A stretch of 64,000 nucleotides of DNA from Dysidea avara (taxonomy: Eukaryota; Porifera; Demospongiae; Dictyoceratida; Dysideidae): contig NC_089284.1 of the NCBI RefSeq assembly GCF_963678975.1, positions 2,756,001-2,820,000 of the forward strand. The letters are read 5' to 3'. The number at the start of each line of letters is the position of its first letter. Position 1 is the first letter of the stretch. Positions 1,746 to 61,700 of the stretch are shown piece by piece. The notes under the pieces were generated by a model. It did no database searches, was not told the origin of the DNA, and saw only the letters and a program-made list of their open reading frames with translations. Position numbers and translations under genes: made by a program.

Positions 1746-3906
1746 AAAGAATTATTGCTCCAGGAGGAAACCCCATGTGCTCAAATTGCAAGAGCACATT
1801 GCAGAGTAAGCGCTTTGAAGGCAAGAGAATTGTGATCACTCTGAGAGGTATATGCATGAATGAATGCACGTGTACATAGGATTGACAATAATTTGTGTAA
1901 ATATTAGGGAGATATGACCTAGATGATGTGGTGTTGTATTGTAACGAGTGTAAAATTGAGCAACACTTGGAAGGTTATTGGATAGGCTGTGTGGACAGAC
2001 ATTCACAGTACCTCTTTGATGAAGACTTGTTTTTGTTCTTCGATTATTTGCAGAAGTTTAGTCCAGGATTATCAGTCTTGGGATTTCTGCATACATTGGA
2101 GGAATATTCTGCTGAGAGGAACAGGGTTAGTAATAATGACATTTACGTATGATATTTAGTTATAGGATTTATATGCTTTGTTTACCGTACTGCATACCAA
2201 TTAAATTATGCATAAATTTTATGTGGCTCATGTAACATACACATGAACATGCATGTTTGTAACAGCATAGCACATTTTGTAAAAACTGTAGAGACTACAG
2301 TGTACGTGTACATACTTATTGTTAGATTTCTTGCCTGCTGCTACTGTACATTGGGGCAAATCTATGCCACTTATAGCCTTTCAAGATTAGCAAAGTAGTC
2401 CAGTCATTGCACTTACATATATAATTTAATCATGCATGCACAATGCATCATCATACATTAGTCGGCTTATAATGCACAGCTTAGAAGAATTTGTCAGTGT
2501 TTGTATAAGCATTAGTGCCAAGTTTCTGTATGCCATAGGTAGCCAGAATAAATCCAACAGCCTTTTCGAAATCCTTCCAAGAATGGCGGTATTGCAGATA
2601 CGAGCTCAAGAAGCTGAAGAGGGAGGCAATATTTGAGTGTCCAGCTTGTAGTGACCACCAACATTCCGTCCACATAGATGGTAATAAAAAGCTGTACCGC
2701 TTTTCCAAAGTCAAGAGGTATAGTACGTATGTACGTATGCATGCAATTTTAAGCTTGGATGAAATGTATACAGTGGATATAAATAGGCTGTCCTTTGACT
2801 TAGTATTGTAGGTCATGTGCTGCAAAACTTTAGAATGTATCTTTTATTTTACATTTGAAGGATCACCACACATGTACCACAGCAAGACAAAAGGTTGTAT
2901 AAGTATTGAGATACAGTGTACCCTTTTTAATTTATATCTACATACAGTAAGTCCTGTTTAATCAACTACATGTAACATCTATTCACGCACATGAAAATCA
3001 ACTTTCTTTTTTTATATAGTGTTTGTATATTCTACAGTTTGAATATCCATGTAATGCAATGAAGATACATCAGTAATTTACTTTATGCCCTATAGTTATG
3101 TCCCATAGAGTAGCAGAAAAGTGCAAGATTTGACATTTTAAATACTGTATGGCAAATTAATTTCTAGAACACAGCAAGAGTCATACTATGCTGGTGATTT
3201 TATTGTAAAGGACACTGGTGTGGATCAACATTTGGAGACACTCGGCTATGGATCAGGAACTGTAAGTGACAGCTGTATGATTTCAGTAATGTGTAGTGTT
3301 ACCTATGTGTGTGTAGGAAGGTGATGATGGTACATGTGGCACAACTAGATGGAAGGCAGCTAAAGCAGTTTCCAGAACTATGCCTACTTTAGATGAAACA
3401 GGCATAGTTACAGGTGGTTGCAGGCATGTCATTGCGCAGAAGGCAGTGAACATGTTCCGGGGTGAAATGTAAGTATATCATTCACACCTATTTTTGTAGG
3501 AAAAAGCTTTGGCAATTTATCTCTGAAAGAATTTGATGGATAATGTTTTAGCAAATGCTCCACATTTTCCTGGTTAAGAATTGCCTGAAAAGTTTGTTTG
3601 TAATACTGCAGTCTATTAACCAATTTCCCCCCAAATTTTTTCACTGTATCTTGTTATAATTTATGTATGGTTTGTATACTTTAAACACAGATATGGCTAC
3701 TCTCATTATTTACATGAGAAAGTATTTGCCCCACGTGGTGTCAGATGGCTATGGCAAGATGTTATATGTCAGTATTGGAACTGGGCACGGAGTAAGACTG
3801 CACTTTTTCCAGGATCCAGAGCGATGGATATGAAACCAGCACTATCTGTGATGCATGCCAAAGCACATTCTTGGCACTGTCAGGTGAGACAATATGCACA
3901 AACAAC

Positions 3907-3994
<88 letters not shown>

Positions 3995-6900
3995 TGCGTA
4001 CACTTGCTTACTTTCCCTTTTGTTGCCGTTGAACGGTTAGGCAAGCCAAAATGGCAACCAGAATAGCTTTATATTCCACATGTGTGTACTGCTAGGCCTC
4101 CTTTACTTCTGAACCACTTGTTACAGGTCACACATTGCACAGCTCCCTTCTGTAATTGGACAGGTTTACTTCGTTCATCAATACATTTGTGTCTATTCTT
4201 ATGAGATTCTCTTCTGAAATATCTCAAACAAGTTGGACACCAGATCTTAGGTTGCTGTGGTTCAACAGATCCATTACTACTGTAGATGCTTCATCCACTA
4301 ATCTCCTACTACAACGCTCTCCAGCCTCCTCTAGATGTCACAGCTTCTTCATACCACGTACCTTCGTCAACACCAATGTCCTTTAAGTCTTGTCTGATCA
4401 CATCTCTCCACTGTTTCTTTGCACCTCCCTGTTGATTAGGTTGTTGCAACCAACCAAACAAAGCATTTTTGGGAATTCTCTGATCAGGCATACGTGCTAC
4501 ACTGTACATGCCCTAGCCATTACAGTCTTCTCTTCATGATCTTAACATCTATACATTCTTCATCTCCCCACAATTCTTACTAATTGTAGTTGGTCTCATT
4601 CCATTGCTGACTGTTTTTATCCCCAAAATTGCTCTTAAGCACCTGTTGTGGAAAGCATTCAGTTTCCTAACGCACCTCTTCAATGGTATCCAGCACTCAG
4701 CACCATACAACAAAACAGACAGTACACAAACTTGGTATACTCTTCTCTTAGTGCTCAAAGTCAAGTTTTTTATCTCTAAAATCTGTCTACCTTAATGCCC
4801 CAAAGACTTGAGAAGCCTCTGTTATGCATACACACACGTACACATATGTACGCACACACACACACACACACGCACACACACATACATACACACACACTAC
4901 ACACACTACACACACACACTACACACACACACGCACACACATAAAGCAAAGCTTACAGCAATAGCTGTGTGGAACAGAGCTATTGCTGTCCAGTGAACCA
5001 GTGCTGGGATGCCAGTGCACCACTCAGGCACTTGAGTCTGTGCCGGCAAATCCTCCTGGGGCAAGACTAGTAACCGCAGGAGGACTGTTCAAGCCTTACA
5101 GAGAGATGCTGTGGAACCCGAAGTTTTATGACAGCCTCAACATCACTTAGTGAGACAAGGATAGTTGAGCATTTGCTTCCCTGTTAATACCAGGTACCCA
5201 TTGATGTTACAGTTGGGTTGGCTGTTTCCACAGTTGACATCAGGTCCCCTTTATACAGTTAGGTAGAGTTAAATTTCTTGCTCAAGGAAACAACGACAAC
5301 AGCTAGGCTAACCAGGTATCGAACCTGCAACTTTACGACTACCAAGCCAATGCTCTGACTGTTTGGCTGTGCTGCCTCACATGCACACACACTATACTAC
5401 ACACACACGCGCATGCACGCACACACACACACCACTAAGAACCAGACAGTGCACATGCTTTGTGTGTTTGTATCTGTGACTAGATCCTTTGGGGAAGTAG
5501 GTGGCAAGATGGTGCTGGAGGGGGTGCTGGGGAAGACATGGAGCAGTTTTTCTCATACATTTCACGCTGGGGCTCAACATCAAAGAATATGCTCCCAAAA
5601 AGTACAGTATTATACTTTTATATTTTAACGTATAGTTAAAGATATATCAGTTTCCTTTTCTTATATCTTAGCACGAGTAGACCATATAACTGAGGCTGCA
5701 GGATTTTGGAACAGTCGCAAAATCAAAGCGCTTCCCTTTTCACTCAATCGTAGACTTCATAAGGTACTTCAAATAATGTAGTCAATATTGTTGAATGCTA
5801 CAGGTTTTGCAGACTCGTGAGTTACTTCTAGAGGCAACACTGGAATTACATCAGTTGCAGCCAAACTTTGATGTCAATTTAGATGATGCAGTGTTAGACA
5901 CATTCAAGAGAAATTTGACAGCAATTGCACAAGGTTTTTCTGTACTAGTGTATGACAGCAATTTAAGTATGTGTATACACTGTAGCTGAATTGTCTTCAT
6001 TTGCACCTAATGCAATTTTGTCAGATGTTGCCAAGTACTTTCAAATGAAAGAGCAAGCAACCCTTGCCAGCAATTTAACTGGTTACTTGTCAGCTGCGTC
6101 AGAACCACTGAGCATTGTGCTATGTACGTAGAGTAGAGTAGATGTATTAAAATATGAAACTCTTTTGTGTGCATGGTAAATATCACTTGGATCACAGTAC
6201 TTTACATGCCAATTGTACAACTTTTTATAGCTTGTGATAGTCTATACACTGAAGCTGTAAACTTCACCAAGAAGTGTGATGGGCAAGTGAGCAGTATGCA
6301 ACATCTCGAGAATAGGCTGGGTCAGCATACATCTGTTGATGGGGAAAAAGACATAGTGCGTTACTCTCTGGTAAAGCTACAGGAGGAAATGGAAGTTATT
6401 AGCCTTTCCATTAAGAGACGCCAGGAAGCTTTGCAGAAAGCAACAAGTTCGTTTTAACTCATCACTAGCACTTAATATGCACAATGTTTGCTCACTTGAC
6501 TAACCAGATCAATTTTGGAAGGTATTGTATCTATATTACTCATTTGCCAATGGTAGTGTGTCAACCACTGATAATAATAGCAAGGACTGTCAAACGGTTG
6601 TGACAGGCTGTGTGTACGGAAAATTTCTCAGTTATTGCCTGCTTGTATTGTGGAACAGTTTATGTAGAACCAAAGTAAATATATTAGGAATAGATAAATA
6701 TTGTTTTAGTGTATTGTTTTAATACCTTTGTGTGTTCAGTACTTTTGCTACACACGTATGATTATTTTGCTGTAGCATCCAGTAAACAGCGTTCTAACTT
6801 AAGAAAAGCTATTACTACTGATAAGTCTAAGTTACGGAGAGCAATTCAGAAGTACGGCAGTGTCCAGGAGTACCTTCAACCCAGCGAACGGATCCAGATA

Positions 6901-8999
6901 TGTGAAGATGATATTGTTACAGGAGAATTTCCTTGGTCCACTTTAACTGGTATGTACAGTACATCTGTCAAACCAGCGTAGTACAAACTGTACAGTATTC
7001 ATTTTTGCAGTGATTCTTTACATACGTATTCACTCATGCCATCCTATAGGTCGCTATAGCATGGCAACCAAGCTTCAACTTGAAGCAACAGAGAAGTACA
7101 ACCTCATACGTCGCCTGAAGGAAGAAGAACTACTTCTAGTAAAAGAAATGTCATCTTACATCTCATTTTATCAGCGGATCATATCAGAATTAAAGGATGC
7201 TGTTAGAGGTATTATATTGAGATTGCACTATTCCAATAACTCATTGTGGTGCTTAATATAGTGGAAGAGGCTACTCTTACGCTAACCAGCATTACATGTA
7301 CGTGAGCATTGATGCATAGAATATGTGATGCTTATATTTGATGGGTTGTTTTTTTAGCCTTGCAACAACATCAAGGGATCAACAATTCAGATACAAGTAA
7401 ACCCAAATACTTATAATAAGTGAGCGTGTACATGTTAATGTTTACAGATGCAACTAACATGCCAACATCACCTGTTTCAAGTGGTAAGGACTAAGGTTAC
7501 TTGATGATGTTAAATTATTAGTGTTTCCATAGCAGCCACTTTGACTTCGGACAATTCAAGTGGTAAGGAATAACTGTGGTTACTTGATGGTGCTAAATTA
7601 TCAGTGTTTCCATAGTATCCACTTTGACTTCGGCCAATTCAAGTGGTAAGGAATAACTGTGGTTACTTGATGGTGTTAAATTATCAGTGTTTCCATAGCA
7701 GCTACTTTGACGTCGACTAATTCAAGTGGTAAGGAATAACTGTGGTTACTTGATGGTGTTAAACTATCAGTGTTTCCATAGCAGCCACTTTAACGTCGGC
7801 CACTTTGACGTCGGCCAATTCAAGTGGTAAGGAATAACTGTGGTTACTTGATGGTGTTAAATTATCAGTGTTTCCATAGCAGCCACTGACTTCGGACAAT
7901 TCAAGTGGTAAGGAATAACTGTGGTTACTTGATGGTGTTAAACTATCAGTGTTTCCATAGCAGCCACTTTAACGTCGGCCACTTTGACGTCGGCCAATTC
8001 AAGTGGTAAGGAATAACTGTGGTTACTAGATGGTGTTAAATTATCAGTGTTTCCATAGCAGCCACTGACTTCGGACAATTCAAGTGGTAAGGAATAACTG
8101 TGGTTACTTGATGGTGTTAAATTGTCAGTGTTTCCATAGCAGCCACTTTGACGTCGACCAATTCAAGTGGTAAGGAATAACTGTGGTTACTTGATGGTAT
8201 TAAATTATCAGTGTTTCCATAGCAGCCACTTTGACTTCGGACAATTCAAGTGGTAAGGAATAATTGTGGTTACTTGATGGTGTTAAACTATCAGTGTTTC
8301 CATAGCAGCCACTTTGACGTCGACCAATTCAAGTGGTAAGGAATAACTGTGGTTACTTGATGGTATTAAATTATCAGTGTTTCCATAGCAGCCACTTTGA
8401 CTTCGGACAATTCAAGTGGTAAGGAATAACTGTGGTTACTTGATGGTGTTAAATTATCAGTGTTTCCATAGCAGCCACTTTGACGTCGACCAATTCAAGT
8501 GGTAAGGAATAACTGTGGTTACTTGATGGTGTTAAATTATCAGTGTTTCCATAGCAGCCACTTTGACGTCGGCCAATTCAAGTGGTAAGGAATAACTGTG
8601 GTTACTTGATGTTGTTAAATTATTAGTGTTTCCATAGCTTCCATGCAAGCATCAACTGCTTCCAATGGTAAGGAATTAATGTGCTTTGAGAATATCATCT
8701 GTTCAATGTATTTATTCCAGATGTTTCATCGGTTCAGAGTGTGAGTATATGCAATAATTTTTGTAACTACTATTATTATATATATATATTTTTTTAAATA
8801 GGGAAGATACACTTCAAATAGAAATTGTCCAAGGTTTATAAGGGGTAAAATTGCACTTCTGAAGATGCAGCATGATTCTACTAAGGTGTTTTTATCATTT
8901 GTTAAGAATCTACTAGAAGCCTCTGAATCCGATGAAGTGGATATTTCTAGCATAGATCAGGTGTCTGAATCAGGCAGTGATGAAAATGATGACATTTAA
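1746..8999 (+). CDS. KDZ-family transposase-like gene, about 20 core exons plus a mini-exon array; 5' end unresolved
   Basis: Core exons, all phase-compatible: 1746-1847, 1908-2125, 2539-2717, 3168-3261, 3317-3468, 3691-3883, 5484-5601, 5672-5763, 5804-5933, 6025-6123, 6231-6450, 6508-6521 (14 nt), 6776-6949, 7050-7208, 7262-7297, 7358-7396, 7448-7483, then the array, and a last exon ending with TAA at 8999. Two Cys pairs come first (MCSNCK, LYCNECK), then FECPAC and HIDGN, as in KDZ (Kyakuja-Dileera-Zisupton) transposases. Next come TLDETGIVTGGCRH, WLWQDVICQYW and MHAKAHSWHC, then GAGEDMEQFF, which supply candidate catalytic D, D and E. The C-terminal half is helical, with coiled-coil-like stretches, and ends in an acidic tail (ESGSDENDDI). 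No stop codon interrupts the core, which suits either a domesticated gene or a recently active, intron-bearing element. Family assignment is by motif reading only. The start codon is not located, although ATG at 1783 is possible. Confidence 0.75.
3910..3995. repeat. (CA)n microsatellite
   Basis: A run of about 40 CA dinucleotides with a few interruptions lies inside intron 6 of the KDZ gene. Open frames here on either strand are artefacts of the repeat. Confidence 0.97.
4150..4800 (-). mobile_element. LINE fragment, reverse transcriptase C-terminal region, decayed
   Basis: On the reverse strand one frame reads RRVYQVCVLSVLLYGAECW and a second reads SVARMPDQRIPKNALFGWLQ, followed by KKQWRDVIRQDL and GTWYEEAVTSRGGWR. 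These are typical of the stretch after the reverse transcriptase core in RTE-like LINEs. The two parts are in different frames, so the copy is dead. It is probably the same family as the scrap at 1-350 and sits in an intron of the KDZ gene in antisense orientation. Confidence 0.75.
4832..4945. repeat. (CA)n and CACTA-rich microsatellite
   Basis: A CA-rich simple repeat with interspersed ACACTACACAC units lies between the LINE scrap and the SINE. Confidence 0.95.
4955..5385 (-). mobile_element. tRNA-derived SINE, near full length
   Basis: Read on the reverse strand, the head is GAGGCAGCACAGCCAAACAG, then GTCAGAGCATTGGC (A-box-like) and GGTTCGATACC (matches the B-box consensus GGTTCRANNCC). 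After this comes TTGAGCAAGAAATTTAACT, a segment also met in other tRNA-SINE bodies. The rest matches the two copies at 515-1262. It lies in a KDZ gene intron in antisense orientation and ends in CA-rich DNA. Confidence 0.8.
7484..8640 (+). repeat. Mini-exon array A: 13 tandem exon-intron units in the KDZ gene
   Basis: The unit is about 83 bp. It has a 30-nt block such as CAGCCACTTTGACTTCGGAC plus AATTCAAGTG, and then a 53-nt block that begins GTAAGGAATAACTG and ends GTGTTTCCATAG. The 53-nt block has canonical GT-AG ends and the 30-nt block is bounded by them, so each unit is a potential phase-1/phase-1 exon adding ten residues (AATLTSDNSS or AATLTSANSS). Units 4 and 6 have 45-nt exons with an internal 15-nt duplication, and units 5 and 7 have 28-nt exons. 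The exon before the array (7448-7483, ending SPVSS) and the divergent unit after it (about 8640-8669, ASMQASTASN) have the same phase. Confidence 0.93.
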
Positions 9000-10212
9000 C
9001 CCTTAATGCACACATAACCTCACTTTAATACCAGTATATTTGTACCAATGTATATATTCATTGACCACATGGTATCATGGAATAGCACCAGGAAACCTAC
9101 TCGTGATTAGTGCTACGGTGCACACATATATGCCTAGCCTGAAGTTTTATGCTACATGATTGACATCTGCAACATACAGGCTGTATCAGGCCCATAGTCC
9201 CATACCCAGGGGGTGCATAAGAACCCCTAGCTATTTTACAGCAGTACTTTTATTTTACTAAATTTTTCATCTTTCTAGTGCTCATTATGTTAAGTACTAT
9301 ATAGCTGATGGAAAATTATTTAAAGATCCATATGCATCATTTTGGAAATTGCTATAAATTGTGGCTATTAATTTTTTTCTTGAATATTCAGCATCTCATC
9401 CAAATTACCTGCTCAAATGCAACTTCGTTCTCAATGCCCTTTTGAAAATCCTGCATACGGCCCTGTGTATATACCACACGTAGCATATAATATAATATTA
9501 CTCTTCTCAAGTGTAACTACTCTGAGTATGCATAGTCATTATCACTACACTAGTTGACATGATTGTTATTTCAAGGCATTAATATTATAATTGTACATGT
9601 GCACATTCATAATTATGAGATTTCAGCTTTGCATTGATATCCACTTGAACTTTTGTAACGATGTCTGTAGGTTAGGGCTCAAACGAATAGCTGACATTAT
9701 AATATTATACCATTTTAAAATAGCTATTATGCATCATAAAGTGCTGATCACTGTAAAGCTTGAACAAAACAAATGATCAGTGCATAAACATTTACTTCTT
9801 TTTTGTGTCCAAAAAGCATGTTGGCATAACCAGCTGCGTCTGTTATCACATCTCATATAAAATATTCGGTAGTTGTGTGACTAGAGAATATGATAATTAA
9901 ATCACTATTTGTTTGAGCTCTACTGTGTTTGCTAGTAGAGAATGGATTAAAAAGGGACTGTGATCATGATTATATTATTTACCCATGAAATGCACAGTGG
10001 ATGATGTGCACATGTCAAAAACATTCATCATTACTATATTATATGGACGTAGAGAGGTTTCAGACACCCCTAGGCCCAATATTTAATCTGACGCTTTCCG
10101 GGCTGTTTACACTAGTCAAGACAGCAATTATTATTATGTACAGTATTAATTTATTTTGAAACCCTAAATATTATAATGAAATGAAATATTACAAAAAAGT
10201 CACTAGCTATAG
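9000..10212. other. Intergenic region between two convergent genes
   Basis: AT-rich DNA separates the stop codon of the KDZ gene from the stop codon of the CXXC gene. No exon, tRNA-like box or clear inverted repeat was recognised. It holds the 3' ends of both transcripts, although no polyadenylation signal was singled out. Confidence 0.5.
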
Positions 10213-10352
10213 CTACGCTAATTTTTTACATTTTTTGTTAATACATGGTCTCTTTAAACTGGGTTTTGTACAAAATTTACAGGTTCCACACTTTATGGCT
10301 TTACAGCCATCGCAGTGACCACATCTTCTTCTCCTCTTCTTGGGAAGTAGCT
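10213..10352 (-). CDS. Terminal exon encoding a CXXC-type zinc finger
   Basis: The acceptor TTTGTTCAG on the reverse strand is followed by a 46-codon exon that opens ELLPKKRRRRCGHC and closes CINKKCKKLA-stop. All eight zinc-ligand cysteines of a CXXC finger are present with normal spacing. The entry phase (1) matches the exit phase of the mini-exons upstream. The exon is too short to stand out as an open frame. The basic run before the first Cys is also usual for this finger. Confidence 0.82.
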
Positions 10353-13300
10353 CTGAACAAATTAAGAATTGATATAATAGCCAGTAATCAAAACTTCTAC
10401 TATAAAAACATTGACACTACTTCCTTACCACTTGAATTGGCCAAAGTCAAAGTGGCTGCTATGGAAACACTGATAATTTAACATCATCAAATATCGACTG
10501 TTATTCCTTACCACTTGAATTGGCCGACGTCAAAGTGGCTACTATAGAAACACTGATAATTTAATATTATCAAATGTCGACTGTTATTCCTTACCACTTG
10601 AATTGGCCGAAGTCAAAGTGGCTGCTATGGAAACACTGATAATTTAACACCATCAAGTAACCACAGTTATTCCTTACCACTTGAATTGGCCGACATCTAA
10701 GTGGCTGCTATGGAAACACTGATAATTTAACATCATCAAATATCGACAGTTATTCCTTACCACTTGAATTGTCCGAAGTCAAAGTGGCTGCTACGGAAAC
10801 ACTGATAATTTAACACCATCAAGCAACCACAGTTATTCCTTACCACTTGAATTGGCCGACGTCAAAGTGGCTGCTATGGAAACACTGATAATTTAACATC
10901 ATCAAATATCGACTGTTATTCCTTACCACTTGAATTGGCCGACGTCAAAGTGGCTACTATAGAAACACTGATAATTTAATATCATCAAATATGGACTGTT
11001 ATTCCTTATCACTTGAATTGGCCGACGTCAAAGTGGCTACTATAGAAACACTGATAATTTAATATCATCAAATGTCGACTGTTATTCCTTACCACTTGAA
11101 TTGGCCGAAGTCAAAGTGGCCGCTATGGAAACACTGATAATTTAAGACCATCAAGTAACCACAGTTATTCCTTACCACTTGAATTGGCCGACATCAAAGT
11201 GGCTGCTATGGAAACACTGATAATTTAACATCATCAAATATCGACAGTTATTCCTTACCACTTGAATTGTCCGAAGTCAAAGTGGCTGCTACGGAAACAC
11301 TGATAATTTAACACCATCAAGCAACCACAGTTATTCCTTACCACTTGAATTGGCCGACGTCAAAGTGGCTGCTATGGAAACACTGATAATTTAACATCAT
11401 CAAATATCGACTGTTATTCCTTACCACTTGAATTGGCCGACGTCAAAGTGGCTACTATAGAAACACTGATAATTTAATATCATCAAATGTCGACTGTTAT
11501 TCCTTACCACTTGAATTGGCCGAAGTCAAAGTGGCTGCTATGGAAACACTGATAATTTATCACAATCAAATAACCACAGTTATTCCTTACCACTTGAATT
11601 GGCCGACGTCAAAGTGGCTACTATGGAAACACTAATAATTTATCACAATCAAATAACCACAGTTATTCCTTACCACTTGAATTGGCCGACGTCAAAGTGG
11701 CTGCTATGGAAACACTGATAATTTAACATCATCAAATATCGACTGTTATTCCTTACCACTTGAATTGTCCGAAGTCAAAGTGGCTGCTATGGAAACACTG
11801 ATAATTTAACACCATCAAGTAACCACAGCTATTCCTTACCACTTGAATTGGCCGACGTCAAAGTAGCTGCTATGGAAACACTGATAATTTAACATCATCA
11901 AATATCGACAGTTATTCCTTACCACTTGAATTGGCCAATGTCAAAGTGGCTGCTATGGAAACACTGATAATTTAACATCATCAAATATCGACTGTTATTC
12001 CTTACCACTTGAATTGGCCGACGTCAAAGTGGCTACTATAGAAACACTGATAATTTAATATCATCAAATGTCGACTGTTATTCCTTACCACTTGAATTGG
12101 CCGACGTCAAAGTGGCTGCTATGGAAACACTGATAATTTATCACAATCAAATAACCACAGTTATTCCTTACCACTTGAATTGGCCGATGTCAAAGTGGCT
12201 GCTATGGAAACACTGATAATTTATCACCATAAAATAACCACAGTTATTCCTTACCACTTGAATTGGCCAACGTCAAAGTGGCTACTATGGAAACACTGAT
12301 AATTTATCACAATCAAATAACCACAGTTATTCCTTACCACTTGAATTGGCCGACGTCAAAGTGGCTGCTATGGAAACACTAATAATTTAACACCATCAAG
12401 TATCGACAGTTATTCCTTACCACTTGAATTGGCCGACGTCAAAGTGGCTGCTATGGAAACACTAATAATTCAACATCATCAAGCAACAACAGTTATTCCT
12501 TACCACTAGAGACTGGTGACTTTGATTGTCCTGCAGTATACGTAATGTAGAAGTGCAATAAGGAACATCAAATATATAGACACTTGCATATGCACTGATT
12601 AAAGTTTGCAATATATCAGATGTGTCAATTAAGTGCCTCATGCAATAGTGCACTCTTAGAGTTTGCTACAATTAACCCCCAGTCAATGAACTCAGGCATA
12701 CGTATAATACATTGTATATACGTAATTCTAGTCCAACGGCAAGCATTGAACTTAGGCCACTTCAACTTAATCTTCTAATCTTCGGGCTAAAACCAGCTGA
12801 GTAGAGGGTCGGTAGGTCGGCATAATATTTAAAATCAATGTATGTGCCAAACGGTAGCTAAGCTACACTGTGATAGTTGCATTGGCTAATAGAAGAGCAT
12901 GAACATCTTTCCCTCCTCCAACTACATGTAATACTGTAGTTGGTTGGCCAAATGTAAGTCTAGGGATATACATAGTGGAGAAGAAATTTTGGACAAATCA
13001 TGGAATAAAATCGACACCCTATTCACAAATGATGAGCTATGATATGCACAAGATAATTGCGTATAACATTAAAATGGGACTCATCAGGTGACAGCATCAC
13101 AGGCAATCCTCATTACAGGTACAACTTGTGCTAGTTAGGGATTAAAGTTGGACCTGATTTCAGGCTGAGTTCAAAAAGTGAACCTTCATATACTTCTCCA
13201 ATCATCATGGGCTTAGGGTAATTAATATATGCCAAAAAAAACTTATAGTACCTTGCCATTGGGGATTTAAAGTGAGCACATCACAAAATTTATTGCTTCA

Positions 13301-16300
13301 AGTGGCAACTATACAGTAGCAATGAAAGTAAAGCCAAGCTGGCTGTGTACTGCCATTAATTTGTAACATTTATCATGTTTTAGTGAAAAAACTTGTCAAG
13401 ACCACTCCAACAGAGCGCCACTCAAATTCTGTATCTGTACTAACAATTGCTCATAATATACATAGAACTATTTGTCCCTATAGAAGTGATGTTACCAAAT
13501 ACGTATATTGAAAATCCTGATTATTACTATACAATTTATCCCAGTTACCACCCGTATGCTACACTTGTGTATGTAGCTATAACATAATACGTACATAATG
13601 CATATGCGACTGTTTTATACTCTCAGAAAAAATCACTAACTATACTTAAAATGGTAGTTTAAGATAGTATTACAGTATAAGCACAGTAATGGCAAATGCA
13701 CAAGTAAAGAACCTCGAATTCAGCAATTTAGATAAGTGTGGCTTAGTAGTAGTTAAACATTCATACTAAGCGTCTTGCAAGAATTTAAAAACTAGAGGTG
13801 ACGTCAATAAATAGCGAGGCTTAATTTAAGTGTTTTAGACAACGGTGTATAGTACATATAATGAGGTAGTAACTTGTGTTACAGGTTTTAGTGTTTTGAA
13901 TTTGCCAGAATGGTAGCAAATATGAATAGCAGACAAGATGCCTAGGTATACCAATCAATGAATGGGTAGTACAGCTGTGGAGGCTACAAACTGAATATGG
14001 CTTACACTGCTATTAGCCAACTACCACCACGATCGGTTCAGCCAAAGCGTAATTTCTTCCTTACAATTACGCTCACATGTTTGTAAATAGGCCACACATT
14101 AATCATCTACAAGAACTAGTAGACAATATCTATAGTGAAATTCAAAGGAAGTGGCCATGTTAGTATGGGGATACAGTACATTGTGCTTTGCTGTGATAGC
14201 GTTTATACTGTAAATTTAAAAAAATGGTGAAGGTGAGTAAATATTATAATACACAGTAGTATAATCAGATGAAAATGAGTATCCAAGGGCCGATTCATGA
14301 AATCAAGAATCTTGGTCTGATTTTTATGCAGAAGCCAGTTTTTTTTACCACTACAACATGCTTTCTACTGATACAGTTTTCATATTGGGTAAAAGGATTG
14401 CTAAGCCTGCCACTCATATCTGTTATGTCAGCAATTTTGTGGTTCCCTAATTGCACACTATATATGACTTCACGCACATTATTAAATGACAATGGGAGTC
14501 AGGTGATTCCAACTAATTGGTAGACAAGGAGACACTATGAAACTGTGCAACAAGTATCAATGGATAGCATAATGTATGATAACTTATCAGCATTTGCACA
14601 AACCTGCATAATAGTTGAGAATGTGCTGCTTCCATAAGTTTCCCACCAAATCAGTATAATTGAGCATAAAGTTACTTGCAGCCCCTGGTGTGCAGTACTC
14701 GGGCACAAACCCTCTTTGAGGATTGGGCTTGTGTGCTAAAATCAGCACATCATATCCTCCTGAGTGATGTAACTGCTGAGCCTATATTAATGTACAGACA
14801 CTAGTTGTATTTACCCATTCATATTTGGAGAACTATTATGACAAATCAAATCATTTGCAGTGACAATTTACGTCTCTATACTGCTGCCCATAACCAACTA
14901 GAAGCCCCAAAATAAAAACCCAGCTGTAGTAAATAACATTGTTAATTCCAACAACAGAAATCGCCTTAGTTTGTGCATTGTACATGGTACTGGCCAATTG
15001 GAAATTCGAATCAGGCGGGTGTAAGTTTTTTAGACAAATAGAAGCTTATTAATTTAGCAACAGCACATGCGTCATATTATAATAATACATATTGCACCTT
15101 CTTCAAGATTTGACTCCAAATATTTGAAGGATATTTCCGCTCCAATTCTGATGGTGTTTTAGGCATATCTCTCTTCTTTGTAAAGGGAGCATGACATGTT
15201 GGACAATCAGAATGTCTAATATGGCACTTGCAGTTGCAAGACTGACACATTTTCAGCATTGGAGCTAATCCACAAGTGGAAAACATACAGATAATATATA
15301 TATACATTATGTATGGTACTGGTGGATATAACCAACTATTATCATAAAATATATCTTGAGATGCTTATACAGTATGATACTCATTGTGACCACACCAAAA
15401 TTGATATTAAAATGGAACAGGAAATGTGTTTCTTTTGAGACAGTAATTATTTTTAAATATGTGACTGGATTTGCGAAAAGGGGTCTAGCTTCCACACTCA
15501 TCCAATTCTATGAGCTTAGAATAGCACATCTTGGTACGTACTCACAAAAGACATAACTCTGAAATTTTCTCCATTTACTCAGCTATGTTGGTATTCATTA
15601 CAATTATAAAAAGTTGATAGCAAATTCAGATGTTATAACTCAAAGCTGGCAATTTGGATGTGTGTTATTTTTGCAAATCTGATCATATATAATGCAAGCA
15701 AACTAAATGCCTACCAATTTGAAAACAATATTGCTGATATACGTACCAAAAAAACACAGAATTAAAAGCTCTGTTTCACACACTGGCTCTCTTTATCGTG
15801 CTAAAAATATTTAATTTGACTGAGAATCAAGTCCATTTGCTACCTCCATATAGTTGTTCTATTACCACAAGAAGACATTTAGTATATAGTGTAACAGCTT
15901 AAATTCTGTCATTAAGCTTACAGTCATAAGGAGGATACTAAGAAAAGGTACATAAGCTACAGTGTTTGTACTTAGCATTATGATCATGCCAGGTTATCCT
16001 TAGAAGGGAGTTATATTGGACCAACTCAAGACATAAACCATTTAAATTTGTTTCCTTCCATTTGATTTTATTGTCTTCACAGACATGGCAAAAGTGCACA
16101 AAATAGATTTTTGGTGTATTGTCCAATGTAACACTGCATTATTACAAGGCAAATATAGACAGCATTGAGCCAGATGCTTTCATATTTTTATCCAATAGAG
16201 ACTCACCTAGTTCTTCATAACTTTTAAGCCGCAAAACTTTTAAAAAACCATGCAGGCCGTGAAGCTTTTCTAGCCTGGCTTTCAACAAATGAAAGGAAAA

Positions 16301-19095: not shown

Positions 19096-19398
19096 TCACA
19101 GTAGTACTCCCACTTCCCCTCCCCAGTGGATGAAACAATTCAGGGATAGTGCTATTTCATGCTTACAGTAAAGTACTTCTAAATGATCAAAGTCAGCAAG
19201 TATATCAGTCCAAGACGTGTGTGAGGAAACTAGTTATACGCATGTACAGGGGAGTTTGACTGTACTGTATTAGCAATGGACTGCTGATTTTTTCTCTCAT
19301 AAGTAAAGGCACATTGTTGCAGTTATGTTCTATGAAATATTAAAAATAAATGCTGGTATAATATGTAATAGTATTTCCAGCACAATAATTATCACTTA

Positions 19399-19776
19399 AT
19401 GTTAAACAACCACAAAACACACGAGGCAACACTTACAACAGCACGTGATCTCTTGCAATACAATAATTATTTGTGCAAGCAATACTGTTATATACAGACA
19501 CAGAATCATCAAGGGAAGGAACCTGTGAAGTTACAAGTTGGGCAAGAAGTACTACTGGACAACCCAACTAAGAGAAAGTTAGATCCATGTTGGACTGGAC
19601 CACAGAAAGTTAGAGAGTTGACAGGACCACTAAATGTAAAAATAGTGATGAATGACAAGCAGCGGGTAGTTCATGTGAATAGAGTGAGACCATTTCTGAG
19701 ACCAGACTCAAGTACTGTAGACTGTGAATCTGCATGCTGGACAATGGAGTCCTCCATTATTTCAGTGTTATTGTGA
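19399..19776 (+). mobile_element. Fossil LTR-retrotransposon fragment, integrase C-terminal region
   Basis: A stretch of about 125 residues reads LQVGQEVLLDNPTKRKLDP, then WTGPQKVREL and VVHVNRVRPFLRP, the small beta-barrel end of integrase typical of Ty3/gypsy-like retrotransposons. The catalytic part of integrase, the other pol domains and paired LTRs are not seen nearby, so this is a broken, isolated remnant. Age cannot be judged without LTRs. Confidence 0.75.
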
Positions 19777-58700: not shown

Positions 58701-61700
58701 AGGAATGAACAATAATGAACTATTGTACCATGGTGCATGGGCAGATCAAAGGGTTCTACTATGAAAGATATACCACTGGTTGGTAGTTAGACCATGCATG
58801 GCTGGCAGTTTAGAACATGCAGTCTTTTAACACCTTAACAAACAAGTGGACAGATAAGCAAATGTATTTAGCTTTTATATAGCACACATGCATGGCTGGC
58901 AGTTGAGAACACAGACCAAAGAGGTGTCAATTGTAGTCTATTAACACCTTAAACAAGCAAATTAATGTATTTGGCTTCCCATATTGATATAATAAATCAT
59001 GTGCATACTGTATTTACACTTGCAAGATAAAATTCGTGCATGCTATAATCCCAAACTAGTGTGCCTGCACACGTGCAATTTAACTATGTGTCTTTCACAA
59101 ATTCTTCTATATCTAAGCCTTGTAACAATTCATCACCAGCAGGTAAGCTGACAGATGGCTGCATGCTTTGGATGCTCCTTTCTCCAAAGTTGATAGTGAA
59201 ATTGATTGTTCCACTACCATTACTGTGAATAACCAGGGAGAAGACTAATGGCCTGATGGCACCGGTAGAGCTACCATTACTGTTAACAACTGAAGAGAAG
59301 ATTGGTTCTGTGATAGCACTAGTATTGCTATAGCTGCTAGTAAACAATATTGGAGGTGAAGCACTGCTGACATTAGTGTTCATCACTCTTTCAACTTCTG
59401 CATTAAAATTTTGACTTGAAGTACCAGTAAGTATATTGCTCGCAGCTTGTTTCTAACACTTGATGCCTTTTCATATTGTTGTAGAGCTTTTAGTGATCGG
59501 TGTCCAGTGATTTCCTGGATTACTTTCTCTGGGACTTCCTTTTGAAACTGTTCCTGAAGTCCTTAAACTGTGGTTAGTAAATTTACCCTCAGCATTACCT
59601 TTACTAAACATTGTTTTCACCATTTCATTTAGATAGTTGACACCTCTGGGTTGTTCAGAATACCTTCAGAAAACTTCACTAGGGACCTACAATAAAACAC
59701 ACTCTGTTGATAGCACTTTGTGGTAGTTTGCTTAGATATAAATCTAACAATGTTACCAAGCAACGTTCCCCAACAGAAACATTCTTGTAAATTGACACTG
59801 CTTTATTAGGCATGTCAAGTTGATAAAATCCCCCATTGTGGTTCTTTGATCCATGTTCGGTGTACAAATACATATCAGGATTGGTTTGTCGCTTAAATTG
59901 TGAAGGCTTTAAATTACACTATTCTCCTCCTCGTAAACAGCACACCTTTCCAACATAATAGAACACTGCTCTTTGAAGACCGTCAGGTGTTTTCGTAGTA
60001 AGAACACCACTTTTCCAAAGGTTGTTTTCATCTTCTGTTGTAATAACCTCAGCTGACTTTACCTTTGTACCAACTCCCTGTGTATGGATTGACTGAAATA
60101 TAAAATCACATGTGCTGTGTAGCTCTTTAAATCTAAAGTCCTTTCTGTCCAAAAAAATTGGCGGGTTTGTTTGACTCTGTCGAAGATACCTGAGCAGCCC
60201 ACAGAGAATCTGATAAAGTGTTTTAGGCGGATATGGCTTTCCATCTCCTCTTCTAGCTTCAGACACAAAGTGCTTCAGGCACTTGCACAAAACAACACAT
60301 TCATGCTCTTTCTCTAGAATATCGCTAGGATATTTTACTTCCGTGCGCTTGTTTCTCTGCTGGATCCATTCATTAAATACCCTAACTGCCCACGAAGTAT
60401 TCTTAGCGGTATTCTTGGGGATTACACCCCTTGAAAATTTAGTTACTTCTTCTTCAGTAACAGTATTGTTAAAGCGAGACGAAGGTGAGAGTTTCCCTTT
60501 TGAAAGTGACAGCCTTTTATCTTGGGTTCTGGAGCATTTTCTGAAGTTCCACAACAGTTGTAGTCCCTTTTCTTGGGTTCTGATGAAGAAAGAGAAGTTC
60601 CACAGCAGTTGTAATCAGACATTCCAAGACAAAACGGAGAATTACCAGGACATTGCTTATAGTCTTCAGTCATCTATTCGACCTTACTGGACTTGTTTGA
60701 ACTCGAGTTGAGTAGCTTCAGTAATGATGTGTTAATTTCGATTCCTTTGATGGTACAAGCCAGTTATACCACGTTTACTTGTATGATATCATACTCGTAC
60801 TGTGATATAACTAGAACTTGTACATTGATTTGTCTATATAAACATTGTGGGACTCTTCTATTGTACTTTTAAAAGTGCTTGTGCCCACACAGTTTTTGCC
60901 AATTATCAGCTGTAACTTCCCCAGCACAGATCAAACTAACCTGCACTATTTATACAAGTACACAGAAAAATTTGGAATTTTCAACTAGGAGCATAGTAGG
61001 AATATAACACTTCTTATTGTTTTACTGTGATTTAATATTGTGCACTACTCCAGCTTGTTTCAGTACTTTTTATCGATGTGCTACAGTCCCTACTCTAGAT
61101 GAAAATTCCAAATTTTTCTGTGTACTTGTTTGTTAACTTATTTTGTAAATAATTATTATGACTGGTGAACCCACGCATACCATATCTGAAATTATGCTGC
61201 GCGCCCCAATTATCGTCTGTAAAGTGAAGTATCCATTACGCTTCGTTGTCAGCTATGTTCAACCTGTTACACAGCGTTTCAAATCAAGAACTGTTCGAAA
61301 AGCACCTCTGCAATCCACACATATCGAAAGAAATGGTGCCGCACTCCCCCGGGTTATATCAATAATTATCATCTGAAAAGTGAAGTATTCGTTATGCTTC
61401 GTTGTCGGCTATGTTCAACCCGTTACACAGCAGTGCGAATCAAGAACTGTTTGAAAAGCGCCTCTGCTATAAAAATAGCCACTATGACAATTACGGACAA
61501 TTTCCATTACGAAAGGAAGCCATCACGTGCTATCGCCAAATCGACACTTTTCGCTGTCAGCAAAGATGAATGGGACACAAAGGAGGACACTGGTAAGTCC
61601 ATGAAGAAGGCATTGCATGTACTGCGGTATGCCAAAAGGCACCTGTTGGGCCAAAGCGACGTCGAACAGTGAAAAAATCAAGCCCGTAGCCTTAGCCGTT

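Follow-up and report, generated by a model that had tools for sequence, protein, structure and literature searches.

This analysis addressed whether a block of short tandem repeats toward the end of a KDZ-like gene in the sponge Dysidea avara is a series of small coding exons, each with an intron of its own, or a minisatellite that is spliced out as part of one large intron. The window, by which the whole stretch of 64,000 nucleotides that was analysed is meant, lies on contig NC_089284.1 (here C13) of an assembly with 108 contigs and a total of 550.8 Mb, and this assembly was the genome searched for related elements.

Two convergent genes and their repeat arrays

The gene that carries the block, gene A, had been called KDZ-like from its sequence, and Pfam identifies it as a KDZ transposase gene: the KDZ domain (PF18758) is found with an E-value of 2.9e-29 (102.8 bits, cut-off 26.6) and the CxC3 cysteine cluster (PF18804) with an E-value of 5.4e-14 (52.4 bits, cut-off 26.6), and Pfam associates KDZ with CxC cysteine clusters. 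The exons from 1746 to 7483 give a single open frame, with two exon ends adjusted by eye, and the N-terminal start was not located in the exon chain from 1746. The repeat block (array A) is downstream of both domains, toward the C-terminus, and around it are non-repeated mini-exons of phase 1-1, three before the array and one after it (Table 1).

Array A consists of 13 units of about 83 bp, located between 7484 and 8637, and TRF gives a period-83 array at 7476-8638 as several overlapping rows. The acceptor TTTCCATAG is present in 13/13 units, and again ahead of the exon that follows the array, while the donor GTAAGG stands directly 3' of all 13 unit exons. The introns following units 1-13 are without exception 53 nt long (13/13), and the leading intron (7484-7532) measures 49 nt. 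A preliminary description of this locus had portrayed each unit as a splice cassette with its own acceptor, mini-exon, GTAAGG donor and 53-nt intron, and this is borne out in every unit. The mini-exon length it gave, 30 nt, applies to nine of the 13; exons of 45 nt are found in units 4 and 6, and exons of 28 nt in units 5 and 7, which have an identical 2-nt loss within a duplicated pair of units. It had also placed all thirteen units in frame, and this part of the description has to be withdrawn. With all 13 units included, the frame shifts at unit 5 and a TGA is met in unit 7. If units 5 and 7 are left out, or all 13 units, the frame is open through to the TAA at 8998-9000, and leaving out just one of units 5 and 7 does not give a frame that is open to this stop. 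The exons flanking the array join it at phase 1 and are open at both sides. The frame breaks in units 5 and 7 thus leave full in-frame inclusion unsupported in the window copy.

A second array (array B) lies on the minus strand, in a convergent gene, gene B. It has 25 units, all with exons of 30 nt (25/25) and with internal introns of 53 nt (24/24); the second period-83 array reported by TRF extends over 10421-12507. Read in phase 1, a 27-nt exon leads into the array and the array into a CXXC-like finger exon, which is the terminal exon of gene B. Unit 18 has ATAAGG instead of GTAAGG, and so has lost the GT of its donor, and unit 22 has a TAG in phase 1, so that full inclusion of array B is not open.

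The finger of the window copy scores 21.7 bits against zf-CXXC (PF02008), below the cut-off of 26.5; the four finger copies scanned range from 15.3 to 26.4 bits, all below 26.5, and PF02008 was the only family given for each. As judged by eye, the cysteine spacing with a basic start (RRCGHCDGCKAIKCGTCKFC followed by two more cysteines in the window) is comparable in other copies. A KFGG motif is typical of zf-CXXC and is, also by eye, absent from the CXXC-like finger of the window. Further upstream in gene B, the GGYDVLILAHKPNPQRGFVPEYCTPGAASNFM exon candidate is matched in a copy on C9 (locus L075; 35% over 34 residues, E 8e-7), and a cysteine-rich stretch at 15080-15364 (minus strand) is likely to be a second upstream exon. 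The upstream part of the gene showed no Pfam domain above cut-off, the weak hit being to FYRC (E 0.17). Elsewhere in the window there is an open frame at 19372-19773 that we take, by eye, to resemble the integrase end of a Gypsy-type retrotransposon, and a 231-codon open frame at 59922-60614 (minus strand) that resembles a QRICH1/ZMYM-like domain, again by eye.

Table 1. Features of genes A and B in the window, in order of position.
Feature	Position	Strand	Basis
Gene A exons upstream of the linker: CxC3 cluster and KDZ domain	1746..6949	+	exon chain, Pfam
Exon before the linker, coiled-coil-like by eye	7050..7208	+	exon chain
Non-repeated 1-1 mini-exon, 36 nt	7262..7297	+	exon chain
Non-repeated 1-1 mini-exon, 39 nt	7358..7396	+	exon chain
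Non-repeated 1-1 mini-exon, 36 nt, with TTTCAAGTG end as in the repeat units	7448..7483	+	exon chain, dissection
Array A, 13 cassette units	7533..8584	+	TRF, dissection
Array A unit 5 exon, 28 nt, frame-breaking	7880..7907	+	dissection, frame reading
Array A unit 7 exon, 28 nt, TGA here upon inclusion of all units	8059..8086	+	dissection, frame reading
Non-repeated 1-1 mini-exon after array A, 30 nt	8638..8667	+	dissection
Gene A last two exons (8721-8740, 8802-9000), stop TAA	8721..9000	+	frame reading
Gene B last exon, CXXC-like finger, phase 1 after the array	10213..10352	-	Pfam, frame reading
Array B, 25 cassette units	10429..12450	-	TRF, dissection
Gene B 27-nt 1-1 exon before array B	12504..12530	-	frame reading
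Open stretch with likely upstream gene B exon (GGYDVLILAHKPNPQRGFVPEYCTPGAASNFM)	14590..14781	-	C9 element match

Relatives of the element and recurrence of the cassettes

One relative was found for the cassette group of the window, named alpha. This copy, on C14, aligns with C13 from 2753497 to 2771166, with an identity of 94-98% in array-free segments and 91-94% in matches that run through the arrays, and it is without window positions 2084-3230 and 3748-7080, where much of the KDZ gene lies. In C13 there are 13 units in array A and 25 in array B, compared with nine and about eight in C14, and the array of a different group, zeta, has 15 units in C10 and seven in C9, so that the variation in copy number foreseen in the preliminary description is found among relatives. 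A stretch with TGTGTAGTG repeats, at 410-1451 of the window, is also missing from the C14 copy and for this reason is probably a later insertion in C13, or else a loss in C14.

A further relative, on C6, shows 74-81% identity in the KDZ exons and carries, at the corresponding position of gene A, an array of its own, of which 10 units were dissected. In a tree of units, which has few columns for its rows, the units of both arrays from C13 and C14 cluster together and are separated from the A units of C6 and the B units of C2, with a support of 100/100. Mean unit identity is 0.91 between arrays A and B of C13, and 0.64 between array A of C13 and that of C6. Because the latter two are homologous in position, it seems that, after the split, units were shared between arrays A and B of the window element, presumably by gene conversion.

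The CXXC exon has 41 matches in the genome. A convergent KDZ match lies no more than 10 kb away for 17 of them and no more than 25 kb away for 19; this count used 33 of 48 KDZ rows, the other 15 being further exons of the same copies. A KDZ transposase with a convergent CXXC-like gene thus looks like a family of two-gene transposons in this genome. The unpaired CXXC matches are mostly clusters on C4 and C12.

Sequence was read at 24 of the 41 CXXC loci, in most cases over some 1.5 kb ahead of the CXXC exon and with tandem repeats listed from a period of at least 15 and a length of more than 60. Cassette arrays lie just upstream at 19 of these loci, one has an intronless 27-bp repeat, and four have neither in the stretch read; the four belong to one cluster on C12, with no KDZ match nearby. 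All 17 loci in this set with a KDZ match within 25 kb have an array (16 of cassettes and one without introns). Many arrays are cut at about 1.5 kb upstream, and their unit counts are therefore lower bounds. Among the five KDZ copies read, gene A has a cassette array in three, on C13, C14 and C6, and none in the copies at C9:36.2 Mb and on C10. The intronless repeat occupies 2881-3171 of the C9:36.2 Mb copy (L075), where others have cassette arrays. About six of its some ten units are adjacent to the finger, in the finger frame and Ser/Thr-rich, and the earlier units are in another frame. The peptide SATTTVTPS, derived from the consensus, was accordingly rejected as the product of the whole repeat, as only the six or so finger-adjacent units read so.

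The cassettes fall into nine groups, with an exon consensus of 30 nt in alpha, eta, iota and kappa, 33 nt in beta and gamma, 27 nt in delta, 42 nt in epsilon and 60 nt in zeta; the smallest groups, iota and kappa, hold 8 and 7 units. Relatedness between groups was judged from whole-unit alignments anchored at the splice sites, in place of a local-alignment test that found no related pair and was too weak even for alpha and eta (8/200 shuffles as good, exons). Among the 36 pairs aligned in this way, alpha and eta are related (0/1000 shuffles as good, z 6.8) and none of the other 35 clearly so, the best being alpha-gamma (6/1000) and epsilon-iota (17/1000), which is about chance for 35 trials. 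What the groups have in common is phase 1-1, exons that are multiples of three, conserved GT/AG and a peptide of linker type. The same cassette anatomy in other elements, in different sequences and with splice sites and frame kept, points to a recurrence that is beyond chance.

The elements occur as dispersed, near-identical copies, as is expected of a KDZ transposon. A 1500-bp piece of the delta group has 8 matches at 98% or above, spread over 7 contigs; the query itself is among them, and another is limited to 374-1500. An end pair for the KDZ element was not found by inspection of boundaries, by searches for inverted repeats and target duplications (C13/C14) or by alignment of two delta copies: the left limit of the C13/C14 similarity is seen, a right end and a target site duplication of 7-8 bp were not found, and the alignment of the two delta copies extends to the edge of the compared sequence. 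An estimate of the delta array length from the C4 flank was discarded, the flank being another dispersed repeat.

The arrangement had been described as rare. This needs qualifying, since tandem exon-intron repeats are known elsewhere and the pattern is frequent for the element family in this genome. The preliminary description had recognised a real and unusual feature but understated its extent, as the pattern recurs within an element family.

Constraint on the cassettes and the competing readings

In the 22 arrays dissected, 284 of 287 exons are multiples of three; the exceptions are both 28-nt exons of the window and a single exon of 32 nt at locus L058. The 287 include the non-repeated exons that follow array A in C13 and C14, and the dissection misses units with splice flanks more than 1-4 letters (by group) off the group pattern. 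Intron lengths are variable in seven of the nine groups, the counts being limited to introns below 100 nt, which leaves aside a few of the delta group. Among non-modal lengths, multiples of three make up 21/24 in exons versus 5/67 in introns (Fisher p 5e-13), and by distinct length class 6/8 versus 5/28 (p 0.005), where the p-values are inflated because units within an array are not independent. A profile search with a model starting mid-intron (293 units) gave deviations in 11/1172 GT/AG letters versus 715/9593 letters of intron cores; without C14 the splice-letter deviations were 9/1104, and an unrotated version of the test went in the same direction. Exon letters deviated in 580/9520, only a little below the intron cores.

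Stop codons are present in phase 1 in 3 of the 287 exons, compared with 239 in phase 0 and 57 in phase 2, and the residues S, T, G, A, N, Q, P and V account for 2726/3139 (87%) in phase 1 versus 46% in the other two phases. With an acceptor picked by eye, the CXXC exon reads in phase 1 in the window and in 8/8 other loci, one per other group, with possible intervening exons unmapped. Amino-acid constraint inside the units is weak, with 47 synonymous and 80 nonsynonymous distinct unit variants out of a possible 250 and 695, respectively (odds ratio 1.63, p 0.015, not corrected for transitions). By this comparison, the 22 dissected arrays favour spliced coding exons, in agreement with the earlier proposal that expansion of the repeat multiplies exons.

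The reading we prefer, at a probability of roughly 0.78, is that the arrays are coding minisatellites made of splice cassettes, carried by a family of two-gene KDZ transposons. It starts from what was observed directly, namely the anatomy of the units, its recurrence in different sequences, the constraint on frame and splice sites and the copy-number differences among relatives, and it would add that the array exons are spliced, that their product is a flexible spacer and that the length of this spacer is important. The unit would be a symmetric 1-1 mini-exon with an intron of about 50 nt, such that a tandem duplication changes the linker by about 10 residues with the frame untouched; as the intron absorbs indels, duplication would be frame-neutral at any unit length. 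Symmetric exons with short introns would explain why cassette arrays arise, and not only coding repeats. The period of 83 and the change in copy number among relatives identify the arrays as minisatellites, and the homogenised exon-intron pairs place them with the tandem exon-intron repeat genes; they would grow, shrink and homogenise in the minisatellite manner. Splicing of the mini-exons would produce a long, mostly uncharged linker rich in Ser, Thr, Ala, Gly, Asn, Gln, Pro and Val. In gene B this linker would precede the CXXC-like finger, and in gene A it would lie close to the C-terminus. Since related elements have similar arrays of different sequence, gain and loss of repeats appears to change the length of a flexible linker.

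Several observations count against the coding-cassette reading: the weak amino-acid constraint, an exon divergence close to that of intron cores, the lesions of the window copy (units 5 and 7 in A, 18 and 22 in B), and the C12 loci and gene A copies that have no array. Neither window array can be fully included in one open frame, which suggests that units are skipped or that decay is beginning, and either exon skipping or early decay could account for the lesions. That lesions are tolerated in both arrays, and that the window frame is open with all 13 units skipped, would also be expected if the array were a non-coding minisatellite in one large intron, removed as a whole, with splice-like motifs as passengers from one ancestral exon. 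We consider this unlikely, as it leaves unexplained the constraint on GT/AG, the multiple-of-three indels of exons beside the free indels of introns, the open phase 1 in 284/287 exons with their linker composition, and the anatomy common to different sequences. Less likely again, and in our judgement very improbable, is a role of the arrays mainly as DNA elements, such as recombination sites or repeated sites bound by the transposase or the CXXC protein, with coding as a by-product. The arrays do lie within a transposon, mutually inverted in the window, and the A units of the window element resemble its B units, but arrays are placed inside genes, and from one element group to another their sequences differ with frame and splice sites preserved.

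A different kind of alternative overlaps with the coding-cassette reading in anatomy and differs from it on function: the exons are spliced and coding and bring no linker benefit, symmetric mini-exons with short introns being harmless to duplicate, so that arrays drift. It is consistent with the weak amino-acid constraint, with the differences in copy number between close relatives, and with the several non-repeated 1-1 mini-exons that adjoin the array in gene A. Similar peptide compositions arrived at from different sequences, and the frequency of arrays at one site, just before the CXXC exon, speak against it, and drift of this kind seems possible without being probable.

Within the coding-cassette reading, we lean slightly toward a history in which the KDZ-CXXC family has repeatedly and independently made a symmetric mini-exon into a minisatellite (in eight sequence groups, with alpha and eta taken as one, plus one intronless case), in which repeat instability gives in-frame, splice-encoded variation of a linker, and in which the two genes of the window lineage exchange their array. 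By such a mutational route exons would increase in number as easily as minisatellites do, in frame, and many times in one genome. It raises testable questions on tandem exon duplication, including symmetric phase, limits on intron length and homogenisation of arrays across genes, and it would link the evolution of transposons to linker-length variation beside a putative DNA-binding finger.

Comparison with known systems

Splice-cassette minisatellites in a transposon, or a pairing of KDZ with CXXC, were not reported in the open-licence literature that was searched, as represented by titles and abstract openings and with most subscription journals outside it. Tandemly repeated exons in schistosomes were reportedly described by Davis in 1988. 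Schistosome micro-exon genes have, according to the sections of the source that were available, introns of 100 to almost 5000 bp and secreted products (PMC10526429). Such genes and repeated exons resemble the sponge arrays in having short exons, mostly multiples of three, with room for splicing variation, whereas the sponge introns are about 50 nt and the units are near-copies of each other. The exons and introns of human duplicated genes can be modified by internal tandem repeats (PMC2812944, in part). The likeness is that units of minisatellite scale alter exon/intron structure and that copy number varies among paralogs; the human repeats, as far as that partial source describes them, lengthen exons or introns, whereas each sponge unit carries an exon, an acceptor, a donor and an intron. 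Fungal KDZ DNA transposons carry a TET/JBP dioxygenase gene (PMC12730594, in part) and so, like the sponge elements, have a second gene alongside a KDZ-type transposase. The partner in the accessible part of that account is TET/JBP; the sponge elements, for which no ends were found, have a convergent CXXC-like gene in its place.

Spider silk genes provide a further comparison. The genes for flagelliform spidroin and Argiope MaSp2 contain repeated pairs of exon and intron in which the introns are homogenised, and in MaSp2 such pairs arose twice independently (PMC9779670, in the portion available). Tandem exon-intron pairs, introns homogenised per gene, independent origins inside a single gene group and fast turnover of intron sequence are features they share with the sponge arrays. 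The silk genes of that portion encode structural proteins of the host, with exons that are the repeat units of silk, whereas the sponge arrays have exons of 21-63 nt, in units of about 78-107 bp, and are found in two genes of a DNA transposon.
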